IMG/VR virus record: IMGVR_UViG_3300031565_000015
Location: 1-64,000 of that record
Strand: one strand, 5' to 3'
DNA length: 64,000 bases
Source: a virus
Position 1 is the stretch's first letter. Every line of letters begins with the position of its first letter. The notes under the pieces are model-generated. The model saw only the letters and a list, made by a program, of their open reading frames with translations, was not told the origin of the DNA and searched no databases. The position numbers were made by a program, and so were the translations under genes. Positions 6,393 to 19,908 of this stretch are shown here, piece by piece.

Positions 6393-6725
6393 ATGAAAAT
6401 AATTAAGATCCAGACCCCAGGACCCAAACAGTACAGCCTGAACGGAACACCCGTAAAGATCACAGCCACCAACCTGTCTCACAGCGAGTACAGATCTGAC
6501 TACCCGCTGGACACATCTGTGGAAATCGACGGTCTGATATACCTCGTAAGGTTCTCAGAACTGACAGCCCACGAATCACCGGGAGAACTGCGAGAGTTTA
6601 AAGTGCCGCGTGTGAGTAATACGGCTGGCAAATGCCGCAAAGCCCCCACCCGAACAGAATGTGGACATATCGGATGTTCAGAATGTATTTACGATTATTT
6701 ATGGAGGAATAGTGATGAAAAGTAA
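6393..6725 (+). CDS. REFKVP-family protein with CxxC zinc-like end
   Basis: 110 residues with a GGGAGGAA ribosome site. The N-terminal two thirds resemble a small beta domain (MKIIKIQTPGP). The C-terminus has REFKVP, then a spaced C...C...CSECIYDYL pattern shared with the 6897 and 7244 proteins. The cysteines could form a zinc knuckle. Function unknown. Confidence 0.7.
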   Translation: MKIIKIQTPGPKQYSLNGTPVKITATNLSHSEYRSDYPLDTSVEIDGLIYLVRFSELTAHESPGELREFKVPRVSNTAGKCRKAPTRTECGHIGCSECIYDYLWRNSDEK

Positions 6726-6900
6726 AGCCCGGACAGCGCGTAAAAACCACACATGCTCGTGGTGCGGGAGGATTATTAAATCCGGCGAGAGGTATGAAGC
6801 GACTACGTGTTTCCCTAACCAAGAGCCTTACGTCGATGACGTGCCTTGCACCGTCGGCTATTGTAAAGAATGTTCATTTATAAATCTGGAGGAAAAATGA
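6715..6900 (+). CDS. Small zinc-ribbon protein
   Basis: 61 residues. I chose the ATG at 6715 because GGAGGAA precedes it. TARKNHTCSWCGRIIKSGERY is a common start of small phage zinc-ribbon proteins, and GYCKEC supplies the second CxxC pair. It probably binds zinc and perhaps nucleic acid. It sits inside the REFKVP gene cluster. Confidence 0.75.
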   Translation: MKSKARTARKNHTCSWCGRIIKSGERYEATTCFPNQEPYVDDVPCTVGYCKECSFINLEEK

Positions 6901-7247
6901 AAACAATTAAAGTAACGATTCCGGGCACCGAGAGTACCTGGTGTGTTAAAGCCACTGGTGAAGAATGTGTAAGTGTATCATCAGGACACAACATCCACAC
7001 TATGACCCCCGGTAAACCTCTCACGACTATGATAACTACTGAAAGAAGACACTCGGTATATTGCAGGCGTGAAGACCTGGAAGAAACCCCGGGTTATCCA
7101 CCGACCACCCGAGAGTTCAAGGTCCCGGACCCATCGGATTCAGGAACATATTGCGCTTTAACCAATAGAAAGATGGAGTGCAAAGACGCTCATCACTGTC
7201 CAGACTGTATCTACCAGTACTTAGTAGCATTAGGAGCTGACAGATGA
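6897..7247 (+). CDS. REFKVP-family protein
   Basis: 116 residues, starting MKTIKVTIPG after GGAGG; the ATG overlaps the previous stop. It ends with REFKVP and then CALTNRKMEC and CPDCIYQYL. It is a tandem paralogue of the next gene: both begin MKTIKVTIPG and end with the same Cys pattern. Function unknown. Confidence 0.7.
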   Translation: MKTIKVTIPGTESTWCVKATGEECVSVSSGHNIHTMTPGKPLTTMITTERRHSVYCRREDLEETPGYPPTTREFKVPDPSDSGTYCALTNRKMECKDAHHCPDCIYQYLVALGADR

Positions 7248-7591
7248 AAACAATTAAAGTAACGATCCCAGGCAAGCCGTCGGCATTGAAGGTTTTCGGG
7301 AGCGGCCCTGAATGTAAAATTATTAAAACAGGACTTGAGATATTTTTAGTATCAAATCCAGGTTCAATAGCAGCAGACACTTTAATAGAATATAATACTG
7401 GGCATAGATTGTATTGCCTGTTTTCAGACCTGGAAGAAATCCCCTGTACCCTCGCAATCACCAGAGAGTTCAAGGTCCCGAAGTCTGCCAACGGGGGCCA
7501 CCACTGTAATGTTCTGCATAAAATAATGGATTGCCGCGGAGCTTGGTCCGAATGCCCAGACTGCATATACCACTACCTTGCAACACTCTGA
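7244..7591 (+). CDS. REFKVP-family protein, tandem copy
   Basis: 115 residues, starting MKTIKVTIPGK, with an ATGA overlap to the previous gene. It ends REFKVP...CNVLHKIMDC...CPDCIYHYL. Its last 19 bases overlap the 3' end of the oppositely transcribed prim-pol gene, with no visible terminator between the converging operons. Confidence 0.7.
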   Translation: MKTIKVTIPGKPSALKVFGSGPECKIIKTGLEIFLVSNPGSIAADTLIEYNTGHRLYCLFSDLEEIPCTLAITREFKVPKSANGGHHCNVLHKIMDCRGAWSECPDCIYHYLATL

Positions 7592-9906
7592 CCTCCAGCT
7601 CCGCCCTGTACTGCGAGATACCCCTGGGCCTCGCAGTACACGCGGACCCTCTCCGCCATACTCTTGATATTCAGCGCGAGGTGGCCGGATTTAACGTATA
7701 AGACAGGTTTACCCCCCTCATATAGTATCGCATTGTTCGCCCGTCCAACAGCCTCATAGCCGAGGTTTTTCAGTATCTCCGTGCGTTTAGCCGTTGAGAT
7801 CTTCCCGTCGAACAGTTTACTGACAGCCATGGAAGACACCCACCCCCCTATAAAACCAGGAATACCTTCCTCACAAGACTCCCGGACTTTCTGTTCCCAA
7901 ACACCCAGTGAGTTCTCAAACGCTTCTTCGGTACTGGATGTGATTGGCGCTCGGTGGCACTCGCCGGCTGGGTTCAGTGCTGCGGCGATTGGGTAGTGTT
8001 GGAGGTAATGCGTTATGATAGAATATCCACCTTCTCTGGCCCACTTATAGAGATTCGGGAAATACATTCCCCACATTCCGTCCCGTTTCAAATCTTCAAC
8101 AGTTTGCTGAGCGGTATAAAATATACAGAGCCGACGGTCCTCTCTGGTTTTTCGCGCCCCGTCTTTATGGTTTGTATTCATAAAAAAATTAGCTCTATTA
8201 TCTCCGGAAGTCTGATTAGCCCCTTTCCCCTGAATAGGAACTCTCAGCCCTGTTATTAGAGGTTTCAGACATTCTATCAGGTCGTCGTCATCACCTTTGG
8301 TATAAACCTCCTCTATAATAGCCAGAAGCTTACCCTGCACCCAGGCGTTGAAAACATTCCCGACATCTTTTGGGTTGACAAGATGTGTGTACCTCTCTCC
8401 AATAGCCTTTGTCAAACACGTTGTCAAAAAAGACTTACCGTTGCCTTGAACCCCTTGGAGTAACGGCGCCCACTGTAACTTTTCACCTATCAACTGAACA
8501 CACGCCGCCATATAAGTCAAAAGAATTTTCTGGTCCATCTGATCAGGCAGTATCTTACCAACCAATTCGAGAAATGGTGTCGGGTCCCCAGGCGTTGATT
8601 CGACAGGTATAGGCACATATTGATTTAATAGAGTTTTTCCCTCCAGATTTATAACACTTCCAGGGGGCAGTTCTGGGCGGAAACAAACAGCATCCACTTT
8701 CGGAAATCGAAGCGCTTGAGACTCAGTAAACACCTCCCAGGCGTTCTTTGTGGTCTTAGAGTTCACGGAGTCTATGGCGAAGTTGTAACCTCCATACAGC
8801 GCCCGGAACTGGCCCGGCTCCACTAAAGAACCGTTCGGTATGAAAGCCGCGTGATCTTCCAGAACATAAACACACCCTTCAAACAGAGACAGTTGGTCCT
8901 CCGGCGCCAGGAACTGATAGCCCAGGCGGACCTCACCAACTGCCTGATCGGTAGGCGCCACATACGGTGCTGGCTCGGGGAGTGGTTTCTTGCCCTTATA
9001 GACTGCCTTGCACATGCTGACAGCCTTGAGTATAGTGGTCTGCACGTAGTCCGGCCGGTCATGGAATTTATCCCGTTGCCCCAGTGCTGAAGATTCCCAC
9101 AGACGCTGGATGCGCTCACAGTCTTTGCCTGTCCAGAACGCAAGGTGAGAACAGAGCGCAGAGTCCGCCTGAGACCAGTTGAAAGTATCAGAGTCCGACG
9201 GGTACACTCCGGCCAGCGCAGCCTCATCCGCCTCCCACAGTTGCTTGAGCGTAACACCCACCCCCAATATCGCTTTGGCGGACTTAGACTTGAAAGCCTT
9301 GGCCATCAGTTCCGAGTCGTCTTCCGGCCCATACCACTCAGGGTCTGGCGCAGTCGTCCAGTTGGCGTCTACTGATGCAACAGATCCGGCGGTAGGCTGG
9401 AAGTACGTTTCGACTAATTGCCGGTACACATGCTCTGGCGGCGTGAATCCGGAGTCTCCAGTAGCCCCGTTTAAGGTTAAAGCCACAAACCTCTTAGATG
9501 TGTAGAACTGAGAGTTCAAAGGTTTACTGTCGCACCCGTGCGGAATATCAACAGGTTTCCTGCCTATAATGTGAAGACCTTCCCCAGACTGAGAGACCTC
9601 AATGAAACAACCCGCGAATTGCTGACATGACCATTTAGCAATATCATTCCAAGTCCCGTCTGGATTCTTGCAATGGTCTATGTCATAAAAGAAAAGGTCA
9701 TCTGAGTCAGTGAATGTGAACGCTAAAGGCCCGGAGGCGCTTGCAGTCTCACAGTCCACCCATACCGAAGAATCGTGAGCGTCGCAGGCATCCCCTGTTA
9801 AGGGATTTGTTGTTATTTTATCTGTTTTCCCGTTCTCCTTTGGAACGAGTATGTAATTACCGAACTGTTTGAATTGGGACATATACTTCAGGGGTGCTGG
9901 AATCAT
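7573..9906 (-). CDS. Primase-polymerase / superfamily 3-like helicase
   Basis: 777 residues. The N-terminal prim-pol domain shows FFYDIDHC (D75, D77), SQSGEGLH (about 105-112) and YTSKRFVALT. A middle helical part (about 240-300) resembles the bundle domain of NrS-1-type polymerases. The helicase domain carries GVQGNGKS (485-492, Walker A) and LLAIIEE (Walker B) with arginine-rich sensor sequence. The protein should prime, extend and unwind phage DNA. The ATG overlaps the stop of the methyltransferase gene. A remnant of its N-terminus lies at 10775-10885 and a paralogue of its helicase core at 15436-15978. Confidence 0.88.
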   Translation of the reverse strand: MIPAPLKYMSQFKQFGNYILVPKENGKTDKITTNPLTGDACDAHDSSVWVDCETASASGPLAFTFTDSDDLFFYDIDHCKNPDGTWNDIAKWSCQQFAGCFIEVSQSGEGLHIIGRKPVDIPHGCDSKPLNSQFYTSKRFVALTLNGATGDSGFTPPEHVYRQLVETYFQPTAGSVASVDANWTTAPDPEWYGPEDDSELMAKAFKSKSAKAILGVGVTLKQLWEADEAALAGVYPSDSDTFNWSQADSALCSHLAFWTGKDCERIQRLWESSALGQRDKFHDRPDYVQTTILKAVSMCKAVYKGKKPLPEPAPYVAPTDQAVGEVRLGYQFLAPEDQLSLFEGCVYVLEDHAAFIPNGSLVEPGQFRALYGGYNFAIDSVNSKTTKNAWEVFTESQALRFPKVDAVCFRPELPPGSVINLEGKTLLNQYVPIPVESTPGDPTPFLELVGKILPDQMDQKILLTYMAACVQLIGEKLQWAPLLQGVQGNGKSFLTTCLTKAIGERYTHLVNPKDVGNVFNAWVQGKLLAIIEEVYTKGDDDDLIECLKPLITGLRVPIQGKGANQTSGDNRANFFMNTNHKDGARKTREDRRLCIFYTAQQTVEDLKRDGMWGMYFPNLYKWAREGGYSIITHYLQHYPIAAALNPAGECHRAPITSSTEEAFENSLGVWEQKVRESCEEGIPGFIGGWVSSMAVSKLFDGKISTAKRTEILKNLGYEAVGRANNAILYEGGKPVLYVKSGHLALNIKSMAERVRVYCEAQGYLAVQGGAGGQSVAR

Positions 9907-10671
9907 TTAGTTGTCCTTATATTATTGGAGTTTAGACAGTATTTAATATCACCACCGATTCTGTTATGCGCTATCATATAATAGTCGTTGTCTTTCTCAA
10001 TACCGATGAAGTTTCTGTTGAGGTTGGCGCAAGCTACTCCTGTGGTTCCGGAACCCATCGTGAAGTCCAGGACAGTTTCCTGTTCAAGCGTATATGTTTT
10101 TATCAAGTATTCCATCAGTGCTACCGGCTTTTGGGTTGGATGAACTTTCCCTGAACTATTATGAACACATTTTATTCCTTGAATAACAGTGTCCGGATTT
10201 ATAAGGTCGGATTGTCTATCGACATAGTTTTCTTTCTGAGAGCCATAGACTGAGGTCTTGCTATTCTTGGTATTGCCGCTTTTGACTTCAGTTGTCCGGG
10301 CTCTTTTTTTGAGGATTATATGTCGGAGGCGACTCATAGAAAACTGAGATTAATTCATGCCCGCCCATTGGCATTTTCCGAGCGTTCAGATTCCCAGTCT
10401 TCAGGTTTTTAACCCATATCCAATCATACTTATACTCTTTAATATTAGACATACGTAAGGCACTACTGAAAGGCTCTGCCCCGAACAATACAATAGCACC
10501 GTTCGGCTTAATAATCCGCTTCAACTGTGACCACATCAAATCCAGATGGATAACAGAATCCCATCTACACGCCGTTGTCCCATACGGAGGGTCCGTTATG
10601 ATGGCGTCAACACTTCCATCAGGAATATCTTTCATTACTTCCAGGCAATCACCGTATAACAGTGTGTTCAT
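9903..10671 (-). pseudogene. DNA N-methyltransferase split by a one-base frameshift
   Basis: The first part (10671-10288) has GDCLEVMKDIPDGSVDAIITDPPYG (catalytic DPPY) and a SAM-family core. The second part, in another frame (up to 10337), has KPVALMEYLI, the FTMGSGTTGVA SAM-binding motif and NRNFIGIE. The order is that of beta-class adenine/cytosine-N4 methyltransferases, total about 256 residues. The frames meet at a seven-A run (T7 at 10304-10310 on the plus strand); six A would restore one frame. It may be an inactivated gene, a +1 recoding site or a homopolymer sequencing error. Confidence 0.85.
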
Positions 10672-10793
10672 ACCACCCCCTGTTGCTGTGCGTCACGGAT
10701 ATTTTTAATGACAAAATCAATTTTCTCAGGGTCTACCAGATCTGTCCGTTTCCGCATGACTTTAAGGTCTTCAATTACTTGATGAGCGTACAT
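10668..10793 (-). CDS. Small helical protein
   Basis: 41 residues (MYAHQVIEDLKVMRKRTD) with a strong GGAGGTGA site and a stop overlapping the methyltransferase ATG (ATGA). The translation signals are good. Function unknown. Confidence 0.6.
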   Translation of the reverse strand: MYAHQVIEDLKVMRKRTDLVDPEKIDFVIKNIRDAQQQGVV

Positions 10794-10885
10794 TTCACCT
10801 CCATCTTCCCGTCGGGCTGCGGGACAAGAGTATATGTAAGGAACTGTCGGTATTCCGCCATAGCGGACAGTGCTGCTGGAATCAT
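10775..10885 (-). pseudogene. N-terminal remnant of a prim-pol gene
   Basis: 36 residues, MIPAALSAMAEYRQFLTYTL and then VPQPDGK, which align with MIPAPLKYMSQFKQFGNYIL and VPKENGK at the start of the 7573-9906 protein. The frame then stops. It looks like the 5' end of a duplicated or replaced prim-pol gene. Whether it is translated is unclear. Confidence 0.6.
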
Positions 10886-10922
10886 ATTGTCGGTCCTCGG
10901 TTAAAGTGTGTCTGGCTACTGA

Positions 10923-11216
10923 TTAGATGTAATGTGGATTTAGACATCGGCGTGTCTTCATTTGCTTGTAAATCCGCCTATACCATTTAGGCCATGACGG
11001 AACTGGTCCATGCAACCCAGGTAGAAAATGACCATAGAATTTTATGCACCGGTATCCAATTTTAGGGTTATGAGCTGGTGCGAAAAAACCAAACTGCAAA
11101 CCACTCCAACCACAAGGCAGCCAGTCAACCCCAAGGAATATTGCTGTGTACCTGATTTGGATTCTAACCAGACTACCTTTGCACTGACCACTTATTACGT
11201 TTTTATGAATTTTCAT
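10923..11216 (-). CDS. Hypothetical protein
   Basis: 97 residues, basic and aromatic-rich (WLPCGWSGLQFGFF, PSWPKWYRRIYK). An AGGAGAG site precedes the ATG. Function unknown. Confidence 0.6.
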   Translation of the reverse strand: MKIHKNVISGQCKGSLVRIQIRYTAIFLGVDWLPCGWSGLQFGFFAPAHNPKIGYRCIKFYGHFLPGLHGPVPSWPKWYRRIYKQMKTRRCLNPHYI

Positions 11217-11231
11217 GAATCTCTCCTTATA

Positions 11232-11507
11232 TTATGGTCTATGATTTAATTTCCAATCGAAGATAAAACGGCCGGCCGATTTCCTTATGCCGAATTTTTT
11301 CAGTTTAGCCGTAACAATCTTGTGCCGGCCGGAGTGATCAGCACAACAGTAACCACCATTGTGATCTGTCCACGAGGTGCATCCATGCAGGAGGCAAATC
11401 TTAAACGGCTTGTCTGGTTTTCGGAGGGCATACGGCAAGCCATAGCCCGATGCTGCGGCCAGGCCCATCATTATTGTCAAATGTTGACTTATAGATTTCC
11501 CTATCAT
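11232..11507 (-). CDS. Hypothetical protein with Cys/His residues
   Basis: 91 residues with an AAGGAAA site. It contains CLLHGCTSW, HNGGYCCADH and a basic C-terminal half. The N-terminal hydrophobic stretch is short and I would not call it a membrane segment with certainty. Function unknown. Confidence 0.6.
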   Translation of the reverse strand: MIGKSISQHLTIMMGLAAASGYGLPYALRKPDKPFKICLLHGCTSWTDHNGGYCCADHSGRHKIVTAKLKKFGIRKSAGRFIFDWKLNHRP

Positions 11508-11520
11508 TAATTCCGTTTCC

Positions 11521-11706
11521 TTATTTCACTTTGTTCTGTGGATTTTGTTCATCTACGATTTCACAATCTGCCAGACTCCACCACATTTTGAGCTGTCTTT
11601 GATGAGGTTCCTCTGCGTATTCGAAGGTATCTTCCACACAAACTTCTCCGGTTTGTGGGATGTGATCAATGACATTGTAAATTTTCCCGTTCCTTTTTAC
11701 CTTCAT
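11521..11706 (-). CDS. Hypothetical protein
   Basis: 61 residues from the ATG at 11706, which follows AAGGAA; an upstream in-frame ATG at 11781 would overlap the neighbour. The sequence looks like a small beta domain (MKVKRNGKIYNVIDHIPQTG). Function unknown. Confidence 0.6.
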   Translation of the reverse strand: MKVKRNGKIYNVIDHIPQTGEVCVEDTFEYAEEPHQRQLKMWWSLADCEIVDEQNPQNKVK

Positions 11707-11731
11707 GATCCATATTCCTTTTTGTAAGCGG

Positions 11732-12055
11732 TTATTTAATTTTCCTGGGTTCGTATTTAGTCTCACCATCGCACACATCATTCACCCGGTAGTCACAGCC
11801 CACAATTGCACTTTGGTGGTGGCAGTGGTAACAATTTGGATGAAATTTTGTGGCATTGTTCTTCATATCAGAAACGAAAGAAGGCCACGGGCCAGATTCA
11901 AGTTGATCAAGTAATGGTGTTTCTGATTTTGGTTTGGCCGATGCCCTCTTCCCAACTTTCCAACACCGAATAATTGACCCGTGGAAATTGTTGATTTCTG
12001 CCCTGGTATATTGTTCATAAACTTCAATGCAGTATTCAAGAGCTTTGTCTTCCAT
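11732..12055 (-). CDS. Small protein with a DsrA-like N-terminal motif
   Basis: 107 residues with an AAGGAGAAG site. After about 45 residues it contains TPLLDQLESGPWPSFVSDMK, which closely matches the N-terminal segment I recall for dissimilatory sulfite reductase subunit alpha of Desulfovibrio (TPKLDQLESGPWPSFVSDIK). The catalytic and siroheme/Fe-S parts of DsrA are absent. The C-terminus has CYHCHH and two further cysteines, possibly metal-binding. It lies among small unknown genes upstream of the replication genes. It may mimic or bind host DsrA partners; this is inference. Confidence 0.75.
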   Translation of the reverse strand: MEDKALEYCIEVYEQYTRAEINNFHGSIIRCWKVGKRASAKPKSETPLLDQLESGPWPSFVSDMKNNATKFHPNCYHCHHQSAIVGCDYRVNDVCDGETKYEPRKIK

Positions 12056-12079
12056 ATCTTCTCCTTATTTCATTAGATT

Positions 12080-12241
12080 CTACGGTTTGGTTGATTCCAA
12101 CCGCTTAACTTCTTGTCTGGCCTCACTTTCTGCATAATCCTCTGAGGCGTTCCATTCTGGGCTATCTCCTTGGCCGCATCTGGCGCCAGCTTTCCAGCCT
12201 TCGAAGTATGCAGCCTCTATCGCGTCTAATATTTCGTCCAT
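12080..12241 (-). CDS. Small hypothetical protein
   Basis: 53 residues, acidic, starting MDEILDAIEAAYFEGWKAGA, which recalls short phage proteins with an ..A...GW..G helix. AAGGAA precedes the ATG. Function unknown. Confidence 0.6.
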   Translation of the reverse strand: MDEILDAIEAAYFEGWKAGARCGQGDSPEWNASEDYAESEARQEVKRLESTKP

Positions 12242-12245
12242 ATTT

Positions 12246-12506
12246 CTATTCCTTCTCAGTTATTGGGCCTTCGCATCCAACACACTGGCAGTATTTGCCT
12301 TCATAACAATCGCCACCGCTTATGCACTTTTCCTTTGGCGGGTTGAAAGCCTCATGCCAATAAATGAATGGGCAATCTTTCTGGTTTTTGCAAATGGAAT
12401 ACGAATCATCATTTTTCAGGTTGCAAAACCCCACCATTTTTTTGTCGTATGGTTCAAACCTTGCGGGGCATTCGTCTCTTAATTTTATCCATTTTTTTGA
12501 GTCCAT
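12246..12506 (-). CDS. Cysteine-rich hypothetical protein
   Basis: 86 residues with nine or more cysteines (CPARFEPY, GFCNLKN, ICKNQKDCPF, GGDCYEGKYCQCVGC). Such spacing suggests zinc or disulfide stabilisation. AGGAGAG site. Function unknown. Confidence 0.65.
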   Translation of the reverse strand: MDSKKWIKLRDECPARFEPYDKKMVGFCNLKNDDSYSICKNQKDCPFIYWHEAFNPPKEKCISGGDCYEGKYCQCVGCEGPITEKE

Positions 12507-12515
12507 ATCGCTCTC

Positions 12516-12752
12516 CTATTCCCTCTCAGTTATTGCCTTGCGGATACCACTGATTTTCCCCTGGACAGTCTTGAGTGTAAAAGCTGGATTTCTGACTAAA
12601 TCGGAATACATATTCATAACGGAAGCCGCATTATAAAAATCAGCCTTGGTCAAACCATCTTGTGCATATCTCAACCGCCATGCAAGATCGGAATAATTTT
12701 CCCCTGCCGGGTTCGGCCAGGTCGATCCGTCTTTTATTTTTACTCTTTCCAT
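12516..12752 (-). CDS. Hypothetical protein
   Basis: 78 residues with an AGGAGAG site. It begins MERVKIKDGSTWPNPAG and continues as helices (LAWRLRYAQDGLTKADFYNAA). I recognise similar short proteins as phage hypotheticals only. Confidence 0.65.
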   Translation of the reverse strand: MERVKIKDGSTWPNPAGENYSDLAWRLRYAQDGLTKADFYNAASVMNMYSDLVRNPAFTLKTVQGKISGIRKAITERE

Positions 12753-15383: not shown

Positions 15384-15441
15384 GATAACACCCTCCCTGT
15401 TAAAGTTAAAATAATTCCGATAGTATTCCAGTCCGTCAGAA
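15384..15441 (-). repeat. 58-bp leader duplicated at 15979-16038
   Basis: The segment from GGGAGGG back through GAATACTATCGG to CTGACGG is repeated almost exactly upstream of the gene at 15978, with a few changes. This copy keeps the -10 box (TACTAT) but lacks the TTGGAC -35 and the CTATAG-type sites, so it is probably a truncated copy. Confidence 0.85.
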
Positions 15442-15978
15442 TGGAGTTATGTTATAAGATTTAAGAAATTCAGTTACCTCTCCGTACCCACCGTTTTCCG
15501 CCCATTCATATATTTTCTGGAAATCATAGACCGGGTAATAATGAGTATGGAGTACACAAAACCGACGGTCGTATTCCTCGGTACTGATATCGCAGGTGCA
15601 TAGGAAGAAATTAGCTTGATTTTCCTCAGTTACAGGATCTTCTCCCTTCCTATGAACAGTGACCTGGTTATTGACAATGTAGTGTTTTAATGTATCTGAG
15701 GCTGTAAATTCTTCGATAACCACAAGTTTTTTTCCTGATATCCAGGAGTTAAAAACACTATCCACATATGTACCACATACCAAGAAAGTACGTTCAAACC
15801 CAACAGCGTGTCGCAGAAAATTTGCGATAAGTGTTTTACCGTTACCTTCCGGCCCTTGCAGCACCATAGCCCACTGAAATTTCTTTCCAGGATTTTGAAC
15901 GCAAGATGCCATATAGGACAGCAGTGTCTTCTGGTCATTTTCGTTCGGCAACATTCTGTTGATCAGTTCTTTAAACAT
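15436..15978 (-). CDS. Stand-alone helicase-domain paralogue of the prim-pol protein
   Basis: 180 residues from the ATG at 15978 after GGGAGGG. LPNENDQKTLLSYMASCVQ, QGPEGNGKT (42-49, Walker A), FNSWISGKKLVVIEEF (Walker B) and the YEWAENGGYGEVTEFL end align with the helicase part of the 7573-9906 protein. The prim-pol domain and the C-terminal part are missing. It may be a functional partial ATPase, a dominant partner of the full protein, or a decaying duplicate. Confidence 0.8.
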   Translation of the reverse strand: MFKELINRMLPNENDQKTLLSYMASCVQNPGKKFQWAMVLQGPEGNGKTLIANFLRHAVGFERTFLVCGTYVDSVFNSWISGKKLVVIEEFTASDTLKHYIVNNQVTVHRKGEDPVTEENQANFFLCTCDISTEEYDRRFCVLHTHYYPVYDFQKIYEWAENGGYGEVTEFLKSYNITPF

Positions 15979-16014
15979 TATAACACCCTCCCAGTTACTG
16001 TTAAAATAATTCCG

Positions 16015-16070
16015 ATAGTATTCCAGTCCGTCAGAATTGTCCAATTGATTAATCTGATAGGTCTGATAGG
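16015..16070 (-). promoter_or_regulatory. Activator-type promoter for the 15978 gene
   Basis: Minus strand: TTGGAC (16044-16039), 18-bp spacer, TACTAT (16020-16015). Nine bases upstream of the -35 lie two CTGATAGG copies 9 bp apart (16054-16061, 16063-16070), variants of the CTATAGG pair seen at 19983 and 27066. Confidence 0.7.
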
Positions 16071-16074
16071 TTTT

Positions 16075-16359
16075 TTAGATACGAAGAACCCCCTTCTCAA
16101 CTTGGCCTTTAGCTCCCGCCGGCTCCCAAAGAGAAAAACAGATGAAATATATCGGGATAACAACCGTTTCGCAGAGAATAACTGATAAAACGAGATTGCC
16201 TGCTATTAAACGGTATTCGATATCGGGATTACACATTTCTGTTTTATTTACAAGTCCATAAGTCCCATATGTTTTCTCTTTAATTTGTAGGTTTCTCCCG
16301 CAAGAAACCGTCGAAAGCATAATCACCATAGCCAATACACACAATACGGTCTTATTCAT
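16075..16359 (-). CDS. Lipoprotein with C-terminal membrane helix
   Basis: 94 residues from the ATG at 16359 after GGGAGGGG. MNKTVLCVLAMVIMLSTVSC is a lipoprotein signal with cysteine at the lipobox. Later IAGNLVLSVILCETVVIPIY is a membrane helix. The pattern is common in small phage and mobile-element lipoproteins whose function is unknown; envelope modification during infection is possible. Confidence 0.75.
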   Translation of the reverse strand: MNKTVLCVLAMVIMLSTVSCGRNLQIKEKTYGTYGLVNKTEMCNPDIEYRLIAGNLVLSVILCETVVIPIYFICFSLWEPAGAKGQVEKGVLRI

Positions 16360-18374
16360 CGAACCCCCTCCCATATTCTCTCACATAACCCCGCAGCCTC
16401 AGTCCGACCCAAACACTGGGCGGACACCATATCCAGTCCGAACGTGCGGTAGAACCTCATCATAATAACAGAGTCGGACTGACCGGCGGCGCGTTGGTAT
16501 CCACACCATGTGGCTATCATCTCCCGCAGTTCTGTCTGCGCTTCCTGTCGCAGACGGTGGTTTTTCATTGCTCCCAGTACCGCCTGTGGTGGCGCCCCGG
16601 CGTGTCTCAGTTTCTCACCTACCTCGTAGTCCGGAGCATCCACCCGGGCAACCTCTCCCCGCATGGCTGCCAGTACCGCGGGATCTATCTCACTCAGATC
16701 CCCCTCGACCATCTCAATGCTGACGTTACCCTGAGTAACATATTGCCATCCGCAGTACGGGCAGTCTCTCTCATATGCCTCATAGACCGCCAGGCACTCC
16801 CGGCATGTCCGTATTGGGATTAAGTCGTCATCCCGTTTCTTAGACCCTCGGGTGCCTTCCAGGGACCACTCGCGGTATCGGTCCGGAAGTCCATGCCGTT
16901 TGATATTGCCCACGTGATCTATAATAATGGCGTGTTGCTTGCCGTCTAACAGCCTGAGCGATCTTCCGAACTGCTGGACAAAAAGAGGGTAAGAAGCTGT
17001 CGGACGGGCGAAGCTGCACACCTCAATGGCAGGCAGATCGAACCCCTCTCCGAATACGTCTACATTTACCAGTTCTTTCAGGTCTCCCCGGGCGAGCATC
17101 TCAATGGACTTATAGCGCTCTCGGTCCGGGGTACCTGCATGGACCACCCGCGCCGGAACTCCTGCGCCACAGAACGACGCGGCCATATCCTTGGCGGTCT
17201 GAACATCAGGAACGAATGTGACTCCGATCTTACCAGGAGCAAATTTAAGGTAGCTCTTGACCACATCTCCAACGATGGGGGACCGACGGACAGCAGCGGT
17301 CAGTTTCGGCTTGCTGTAGTCACCCGAGCGACCCACAGTGACACCTGTGAGGTCCACGTTACTGTACGGCCCGAATATCCGGTAGTCTGTGAGATACCCA
17401 GCGTTTATCAGTTCTCGCATACCGGGGCCACTCACCAGTGTATCGAATACGCCGGCGGCAGACCGCCCGATACCCTGCCCATCCGCCCGTTCCGGGGTGG
17501 CAGTAACTCCCAGCCCCCGGCAGGACTCAGGGAACAGGCCGATAGCCTGCATCCACTCGTTACCGCCCGCTACGTGGTGACAGTTGTGAACGACTATCCC
17601 GTTGGCTGTGTAGGTATGGAGTTCTTCGACTTCCAGGTTGTAAACGAACCGGTTAGGGGACGTTGCATACAGCATAGAGTTTAACACAGGCACCCAAGCC
17701 CCTGTCTTGGTTAGAACCACATCTTTTCTGGACAGGGCACCGGCTTTAGCCCACCCGCGTTGAGTGAAATAAGGGTGATTGAGAGTAACCTTTGCTGACT
17801 CCATACCCTTAAACCCTATATGTGCCATTACATCAGGCATCGGATTCTTAAACACCCTCAGCATCGGACGCAACTCAAACCCACCAGTCCGCTCGTTATA
17901 AGCTGTGACCTTATCTCCGACACGGATCTGCTCAATCGGTCTGCCGTCAACCGGGGTGCCCGCCGGGAAACACTCATCAGTAACCCACAGTGATGCACGG
18001 TCTATCATCGGCTTGAGTACCTTCTGCCGGTTCAGCAAGGTCTTAACCCCGGCCACAATGCAGTTGGCCCGAGGGTCCTCATAGCGCCGCCCGAACCTGC
18101 GGATCTGCTCCGTTATTATATATTTGCAGAGACTGTCCGAGGCTTGCAGACTGTGAACCACTCCATATTTAGCGAGGGTGAACGACATCTGAGACACCAG
18201 TTCCTGCCGGTGGGCCACGGTGAAAGACACTCCGGTGTGGTGCAGGAGTTTATTGCTGAAGACCACGGTCTTGCCAGATCCTGTTGGGAGCGTAGCGCAT
18301 ACGTTCTGAGCGCCGTCAGCCCATGCGGCGTCTATGTCTTCTGATATCTTCTGTTGGTATGGTCGGAGTTTCAT
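16356..18374 (-). CDS. SF2 DNA/RNA helicase carrying a mini-intein
   Basis: 672 residues including a 130-residue intein. The helicase shows LPTGSGKT (29-36, motif I), VAHRQEL (Ia), DE|CHH (motif II, interrupted by the intein), VTATPERADG (III) and QQFGRSLRL (VI), then a CREC...CPYC zinc ribbon. Spliced length is about 542. It resembles RecG/Rad25-like DEAD-box ATPases found in phage replication modules. The start overlaps the upstream stop (ATGA). Confidence 0.88.
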   Translation of the reverse strand: MKLRPYQQKISEDIDAAWADGAQNVCATLPTGSGKTVVFSNKLLHHTGVSFTVAHRQELVSQMSFTLAKYGVVHSLQASDSLCKYIITEQIRRFGRRYEDPRANCIVAGVKTLLNRQKVLKPMIDRASLWVTDECFPAGTPVDGRPIEQIRVGDKVTAYNERTGGFELRPMLRVFKNPMPDVMAHIGFKGMESAKVTLNHPYFTQRGWAKAGALSRKDVVLTKTGAWVPVLNSMLYATSPNRFVYNLEVEELHTYTANGIVVHNCHHVAGGNEWMQAIGLFPESCRGLGVTATPERADGQGIGRSAAGVFDTLVSGPGMRELINAGYLTDYRIFGPYSNVDLTGVTVGRSGDYSKPKLTAAVRRSPIVGDVVKSYLKFAPGKIGVTFVPDVQTAKDMAASFCGAGVPARVVHAGTPDRERYKSIEMLARGDLKELVNVDVFGEGFDLPAIEVCSFARPTASYPLFVQQFGRSLRLLDGKQHAIIIDHVGNIKRHGLPDRYREWSLEGTRGSKKRDDDLIPIRTCRECLAVYEAYERDCPYCGWQYVTQGNVSIEMVEGDLSEIDPAVLAAMRGEVARVDAPDYEVGEKLRHAGAPPQAVLGAMKNHRLRQEAQTELREMIATWCGYQRAAGQSDSVIMMRFYRTFGLDMVSAQCLGRTEAAGLCERIWEGVR
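17583..17972 (-). other. Mini-intein inside helicase motif II
   Basis: 130 residues (135-264 of the precursor). Block A begins CFPAGTPVDG, block B is VTLNHPYFTQRGW, block F is YNLEVEELHTYTANGIVV and block G ends VVHN with cysteine as the +1 residue. There is no homing endonuclease domain. Insertion falls exactly between E and C of the DECH box, a catalytically essential point, so helicase activity requires splicing. Confidence 0.9.
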
Positions 18375-19241: not shown

Positions 19242-19411
19242 CATTCCTTCTCCGGTATATCACCCTTACAGACAGGGCATGGCAGTTTAGCAAAAAACCC
19301 TAATTCATCATCGTACAAACAGTCGTCACTGTACCCATGATTTTCTTCATCCCAAGGGTCTGGAAATTCCAACCGATCTTTATCGCAGGTCTTACAGCTT
19401 ATTAGATTCAT
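19241..19411 (-). CDS. Small zinc-ribbon protein
   Basis: 56 residues with CKTC near the N-terminus and CPVCKG near the C-terminus, a likely zinc ribbon. It overlaps the neighbouring genes by a few bases. GGGAG site. Confidence 0.65.
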   Translation of the reverse strand: MNLISCKTCDKDRLEFPDPWDEENHGYSDDCLYDDELGFFAKLPCPVCKGDIPEKE

Positions 19412-19908
19412 TTTTCCATCTCCCGAATCGTCCGTATAATCCGAATAGCTTTCACATAACCATGGTCATCAAGGTACTTCTTTCTAACAGCTTTTTCAAA
19501 TGCTTTAAGATCACCTCTGAAGCACCCACAGACTATCTGTTCGGTCGAATCTGAAGGAACCCAATAGGCGCAGGTATTATAGTAGTTGCCACCAATACCT
19601 TTGAACGCGTACCTATTCGGATTTTGTTTAAAGCCCCGGCAGTCCGTGCAGTACCGGCAGTCCGTGCAGTCCGTGCAGTCCGTGCAGTTCGTGCAGTACC
19701 GGCAGTCCGTGCAGTCCGTGCAGTATCGGCAGTCCGTGCAGTTCGTGCAGTTCGTGCAGTACCGGCAGTCCGTGCAGTCCGTGCAGTTCGTGCAGTACCG
19801 GCAGTCCGTCAGAGTTTCCGATGCTGACTTAGCTTGTGGTTCTGTATAGAAATCTTCGCCCCATCTGTTCCCCTGCTCGTCTGCCCAATATCCGTCTTTA
19901 AGTTCCAT
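19408..19908 (-). CDS. Protein with C-x-x tripeptide repeats
   Basis: 166 residues. After an N-terminal (E)GYWADEQGNRWGEDFYTEP lead comes a run of about 20 C-x-x triplets (DCRYCTNCTDC and variants, residues about 35-91), then a globular C-terminus (CAYWVPSDSTEQIVCGCFRG). Regular cysteine every third residue suggests a right-handed beta-helix-like stack, as in pentapeptide-type solenoids. Function unknown. GGGAG site and a strong upstream promoter. Confidence 0.75.
   Translation of the reverse strand: MELKDGYWADEQGNRWGEDFYTEPQAKSASETLTDCRYCTNCTDCTDCRYCTNCTNCTDCRYCTDCTDCRYCTNCTDCTDCTDCRYCTDCRGFKQNPNRYAFKGIGGNYYNTCAYWVPSDSTEQIVCGCFRGDLKAFEKAVRKKYLDDHGYVKAIRIIRTIREMEK
19640..19810. repeat. 9-bp coding repeat (C-x-x triplets)
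   Basis: The sequence is built from GCAGTCCGT and GCAGTACCG units in mixed order. It encodes the cysteine triplets of the 19408-19908 protein and is prone to length change. Confidence 0.9.

Follow-up and report, generated by a model that had tools for sequence, protein, structure and literature searches.

The window analysed here comprises bases 1 to 64,000 of a 68,859-base virus record, and its phage carries terminase, portal, ClpP-type protease and HK97-type capsid genes. On the minus strand, positions 11732 to 12055 (stop codon included) encode a 107-residue protein, P0001, whose coordinates and length agree with the initial annotation. The open reading frame begins with ATG, and a Shine-Dalgarno-like AAGGAG, read from the sequence, lies 5 nt upstream (12061 to 12066, minus strand).

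P0001 is, by its matches, a chimera in which a short phage module is followed by an arm like that at the N-terminus of dissimilatory sulfite reductase alpha (DsrA) and then by a CxxC tail, all on the minus strand. The module, residues 1 to 40 (11936 to 12055), was delimited by tblastn and by an alignment of six sequences with Vibrio-phage proteins, which yields the consensus xCVDVYxDFSEEEIxSMPPSIxxxWxxGK with five invariant columns; the tblastn matches are to Vibrio phages 501E54-1 and 424E50-1 (E = 1e-3) and to H188 (E = 0.2). The same module makes up the C-terminal part of small Vibrio-phage proteins (H188, 424E50-1, 1.191.O and others), whose chains end a few residues later, whereas P0001 continues with the DsrA arm. 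The arm occupies residues 41 to 70 (11846 to 11935), as located by TIGR02064, by phmmer against the PDB and by an arm profile. The remaining residues, 71 to 107 (11735 to 11845), form a Cys/His-rich tail with C75xxC78, C87 and C95, and this tail had no match in the phage collection. With cysteines at positions 9, 31, 75, 78, 87 and 95, the protein does contain the CYHCHH cluster noted at the outset, and the tail is a possible metal site. AlphaFold, run on the P0001 sequence by itself, gave a low-quality and uninformative model (mean pLDDT, 40.5).

An accessory slot in the phage genome

P0001 occupies a swapped accessory slot (9907 to 12515, minus strand), which a close relative, L062, fills with other genes. 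The slot lies between two conserved minus-strand flanks: a 777-residue primase with NrS-1 polymerase HBD and DUF5906 domains (7573 to 9906; identical to its L062 counterpart at 609 of 774 aligned residues) and a 78-residue protein of phrog_3472 (12516 to 12752; 67 of 78 identical in L062). When seven slot ORFs were compared with the whole L062 record, five, P0001 included, were unmatched at 0.01, and the other two, both methylase-like, matched a gene elsewhere in that record. P0001 was likewise absent from the 25 related phage records searched (L062 and 24 terminase-related records, many of them short fragments), and a search of IMG/VR for relatives of the whole protein found none.

Several neighboring features deserve mention in their own right. 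Immediately upstream of P0001 is an 86-residue Cys-rich protein (12246 to 12506, minus strand) with no PHROG match up to an E-value of 1. A DEAD/ResIII helicase of 672 residues (16356 to 18374, minus strand) carries an intein-like HINT insert at residues 146 to 264; its L062 homologue is 543 residues long, with 466 of 542 aligned residues identical, and is 129 residues shorter, which fits an intein-free copy. The 202-residue product of positions 15436 to 16044 (minus strand) is identical at 81 of 192 aligned residues to residues 431 to 680 of the primase, resembling a partial paralogue of its helicase part. On the plus strand, three adjacent small paralogues (6393 to 7591) have an EFKVP...C pattern in common, neighbors agreeing at 32 of 108 and 50 of 112 aligned residues, and a 166-residue ORF at 19408 to 19908 (minus strand) consists mostly of TDCRYCTNC-type repeats.

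Match of P0001 to the N-terminal arm of DsrA

Residues 46 to 65 of P0001 form a 20-mer, TPLLDQLESGPWPSFVSDMK, whose exact sequence recurs at the N-terminus of numerous DsrA proteins from Desulfobacterota. The identical string appears in 39 of 46 motif rows from 48 bacterial loci, rows for which the scan pattern had pre-selected close matches and from which two of the loci (L069 and L109) are absent. In the best cases (e.g., L119 and L140), 22 of 25 residues are identical when P0001 residues 41 to 65 are set against the first 25 residues of DsrA. Database searches bore out the near-identity to DsrA stated in the initial annotation. In a phmmer search of the PDB, P0001 matched five DsrA chains (2xsj_A, 3.6e-9; 2v4j_A, 9.5e-7; 3mm5_A, 1.2e-6; 3or1_A, 9.5e-6; 3or2_A, 1.6e-5), and the next match was unrelated (E = 0.33). 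Its sole match in NCBIfam was TIGR02064 (dsrA; E = 8.9e-7), confined to profile positions 1 to 31 of 402. A profile built from 71 DsrA arms, with P0001 left out, gave P0001 61.6 bits, and among 22,498 reversed ORFs from the collected loci none scored above 9.6 bits.

The likeness to DsrA spans some 30 to 45 residues and fades at about residue 70 to 94. The DsrA enzyme body, with its siroheme and Fe-S cysteine motifs, is absent: P0001 ends 42 residues past the 20-mer, and there is no DsrA match beyond residue 94, in keeping with the initial annotation. That there is no match outside the motif region tells, taken literally, against that annotation, yet a protein bearing only the arm predicts the same. 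The TIGR02064 score of 28.1 bits falls short of the curated cut-off of 392.85, and because whole-protein membership fails, P0001 is classed apart from DsrA. Nor is it a phage dsrA auxiliary metabolic gene, since it does not encode a whole DsrA. The two proteins are alike over the first 25 to 30 or so residues of DsrA, including all 11 key residues of the arm, but DsrA has about 420 to 440 residues and an N-terminal arm, whereas in the 107 residues of P0001 the arm is internal and the rest of DsrA is missing. At the DNA level, the nearest dsrA seen differs from the P0001 20-mer at 12 of 60 bases, all of them silent, which fits, without proving, selection on the peptide. In PHROGs, the first positions of phrog_24411 (435 positions; annotated as of unknown function) are matched by P0001.

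The 11 key residues (L9, D10, L12, E13, G15, P16, W17, P18, S19, F20 and K25) are invariant in 32 aligned DsrA sequences (19 bacterial and 13 phage-borne), an invariance that is partly selected because the loci were gathered largely by motif patterns. The PDB chains, found by whole-protein search and including the Archaeoglobus enzyme (3MM5), provide a control independent of those patterns: four of the five chains keep all 11 residues, and the fifth, 2xsj_A, keeps 10, with Q in place of E13. A DsrA model from the 32 sequences (mean pLDDT, 73.4) places helices at residues 7 to 14 and 20 to 33 around a low-confidence hinge at 15 to 18, and it carries no information on the contacts of the arm. 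We found no statement of the role of the arm or of its contacts in DsrAB among the openly licensed papers searched, nor in the accessible portion of PMC10229431.

The motif is rare outside DsrA, and within the searched data the arm is close to a DsrA fingerprint, since the contigs from scans of IMG/VR, and the matches listed and opened in bacterial genomes, were almost all DsrA. Four scans of IMG/VR used S-or-T forms of the motif, and the loosest pattern, for which a rough estimate predicts 2 to 3 chance DNA matches across the database, retrieved 61 contigs. By translation, 58 of these (31 + 1 + 22 + 4) carry DsrA genes, two of which (L009 and L170) run off the contig shortly past the arm; the remaining 3 encode different small proteins (L163, L178 and L202). 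The motif is therefore not common in unrelated phage proteins; had it been so, this would have counted against the initial annotation. A T-only scan returned L163, L178 and a third contig, L191, whose translation contains no DsrA-like arm and which was set aside as a chance match. The collected loci contain 158 S-type matches (12 different strings), a count that takes in P0001 and loci that occur more than once. Three single phage contigs (L008, L022 and L030) have two adjacent dsrA-like genes, each with an arm of its own.

Among 395 Desulfobacterota genomes, 183 were matched by P0001 at 1e-4; the other 212 were not, and these may have a dsrA with another arm. Frame length was checked among the matches listed, and the odd-sized frames that were opened proved to be contig ends or long upstream frames of dsrA. 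The 48 genomes picked for their close arms yielded a single strong match each, in a DsrA-sized or contig-cut frame, and additional matches in those genomes were weak (E = 0.004 to 0.5). A candidate second arm protein in one genome (G177) was ruled out, being dsrA split across two overlapping contigs. A Desulfobacterota DsrA split in this way (L183, 5374 to 5613, and L184) carries about 35 extra N-terminal residues ahead of the arm, and its neighbors, named by eye, are dsrC-like and cobyrinate-synthase-like genes. The T-type pattern occurred in none of 390 Desulfobacterota genomes.

Arm-bearing proteins of other phages

Of the three small proteins, L163 has 71 residues, starts with MSKTPTLEELESGPWPTF, and contains CNNC and three further cysteines; L178 has 77 residues, starts with MSLLDELESGPWPTF, and contains CFEC. 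In both, the arm is at the extreme N-terminus, as it is in DsrA, and a CxxC follows the arm, as it does in P0001. In L202 (about 140 residues; IMG genome 2602042027), the arm lies inside a different protein, which lacks a CxxC. The profile of 71 arms gave 35.7 bits for L178, 33.7 for L163 and 28.0 for L202, with full-sequence E-values of 2.1e-5, 9.1e-5 and 0.0056, respectively (1.7e-13 for P0001), assuming 1e8 ORFs. Because the real number of ORFs in IMG/VR may be some 10-fold higher, L202 is doubtful, and its weakest score, internal arm and lack of CxxC leave it a doubtful member of the group. Whereas P0001 keeps all 11 key residues, L178 keeps 10, L163 keeps 9 and L202 keeps 8, counts that are partly selected in these three, which were found by pattern. 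TIGR02064 was also matched by L178 (0.0016), L163 (0.004) and L202 (0.0045), the first positions of phrog_24411 were matched by L163 and weakly by L178 (0.11), and L202 matched phrog_2107, thymidylate kinase (0.0034). All three have T where the collected DsrA arms have S. A DsrA-like lead-in precedes the arm in both P0001 and L163, but beyond the arm nothing convincing is common to the four proteins, so that the group rests on about 20 residues. A DsrA-like arm in a non-DsrA phage protein occurs in P0001, L163, L178 and, most weakly, L202.

The phages that carry these proteins are themselves distinct. Portal and capsid genes of the L163 record (G466) are of SU10 type, and the L178 record (G467) has a P22-type coat and another terminase type, so their capsid types differ; in each, an integrase lies about 1.3 kb away. 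The nearest relative of the L202 helicase is a Moorella phage helicase (28.7%). One gene from the L178 arm protein is a Radical-SAM-like phage protein (L196, 11927 to 12751, minus strand; Pfam E = 8.2e-5, under the curated cut-off). Searches of phages with L163 and L178 returned no small relative, just Lau218-type DsrA and weak matches, and a plasmid search with L163 returned no match. Pfam had no match for P0001, L163 or L178, and the PADLOC anti-phage defence models had none for these three or L202.

Searches for a host found no link. The phage primase matched none of the 395 Desulfobacterota genomes at 1e-20, an empty result that is uninformative without a positive control, and a DNA search with 19,901 of the 64,000 window bases returned 3 short matches, with no spacer array in the stretches read. 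The sulfate-reducing host proposed in the initial annotation, like its binding or poisoning of sulfite reductase, is a hypothesis. The name of the L178 contig contains metagenome 3300035698, which the accessible part of PMC8542988 lists as an Ace Lake dataset; the same source places sulfate-reducing Desulfobacterota in Ace Lake.

Possible roles of a free DsrA arm

The reading that we favor, to which we give slightly less than an even chance, is that P0001 mimics the DsrA arm in docking and thereby targets the sulfite reductase of the host. It would be an accessory protein composed of a phage module, a copy of the first 30 or so residues of DsrA, and a Cys/His tail. Its arm would take the docking site of the arm of DsrA itself, on the partner subunit or on whatever reads the DsrA N-terminus, and once docked it would tether the phage part to the host's sulfite reductase or keep that enzyme from assembling, such that sulfite respiration would be altered during infection or lysogeny. 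Docking, its target, the host and the direction of the effect are what we infer under this reading. It is favored by the exact 20-mer, by a DsrA match that runs from the start of the profile, by the constraint on the arm in DsrA, by all 11 key residues being kept in P0001, by the silence of its 12 base differences, by the recurrence of non-DsrA arm proteins in other phages, and by the location of P0001 in a swapped slot. It is weakened by the lack of a host link or a full-length relative, by the T for S in the three other proteins, and by a likeness among the four proteins that is confined to the arm; moreover, the arm, N-terminal in DsrA, is internal in P0001, which may hinder docking.

We consider it improbable that P0001 captured an inert scrap of host dsrA by illegitimate recombination and that its arm has no function. 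A chimera of this kind, sitting in an accessory slot subject to turnover, absent from 25 related records and holding just 30 or so DsrA residues, is what such a capture would leave; however, all 20 arm residues are intact while the DNA differs from the nearest dsrA only silently (although the donor may be another gene and the changes may lie in dsrA), and two or three other phages carry such an arm too. The strong conservation of the arm in DsrA, together with the CxxC that follows it in P0001, L163 and L178, would also suit an adaptor or tag, by which a host factor acting on nascent DsrA (in assembly, cofactor insertion, proteolysis or targeting) reads the arm and the Cys/His tail is brought there, DsrAB not being inhibited; but no such host factor was identified in the analysis, L202 lacks the CxxC, and we regard this role as quite unlikely. 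Least probable is convergence, in which L[DE]xLExGPWP[ST]F is a helix-Pro-Trp-helix element of unrelated cause and its likeness to DsrA says nothing about a partner: the T of L163, L178 and L202 against the S of the 158 S-type matches, the internal arm and weakest score of L202, the 2 to 3 chance matches expected and the clear chance match in the T-only scan all lean that way, but P0001 is identical to DsrA at 22 of the latter's first 25 residues, its lead-in is common to L163, the T-type pattern is absent from the 390 Desulfobacterota genomes, and reversed-ORF decoys reach 9.6 bits at most.

Docking mimicry by P0001 would differ from what is known of sulfur genes in phages. Whole phage dsrA genes have been described, and the accessible portion of PMC8190135 treats sulfur-oxidation genes; the main text available there contains neither "truncated" nor "N-terminal." The dsrA genes of sulfur-oxidizer phages (the same source, as accessible, and the Lau218 records) resemble P0001 in placing a DsrA N-terminus in a phage gene. 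The 58 DsrA contigs from IMG/VR hold dsrA genes, some of them cut by the contig end, whereas P0001 has an enzyme-free arm with the sequence found in Desulfobacterota, and its TIGR02064 match at positions 1 to 31 alone sets it apart from full phage dsrA genes, as first proposed. We take these 58, by their likeness, to be probably of the oxidative type. No account of a free DsrA arm was found among the openly licensed papers searched. Among phage regulators of host energy metabolism, cyanophage CP12 and NblA are small proteins that work by binding; P0001 would compare with them in how it works and not by homology, and its binding element would be copied from a host enzyme. We group P0001 with phage proteins acting on host metabolism and not with DsrA.

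A more general claim, that arm-bearing takeover proteins have been acquired independently by different phages and plug into host DsrAB to control dissimilatory sulfur respiration, is rather doubtful. Phages are known to add whole sulfur genes, and a free arm would instead act by mimicry; if the docking reading is true, sulfate reducers could have their sulfite respiration slowed, redirected or held by such an arm, with consequences for the sulfide produced in sediments, in guts and in industrial systems. By isolating the arm, P0001 offers a ready-made natural probe, and hence a handle on the purpose of the conserved N-terminal arm of DsrA. The recurrence of the arm in small virus proteins suggests that viruses may grip or jam the respiration of their hosts.
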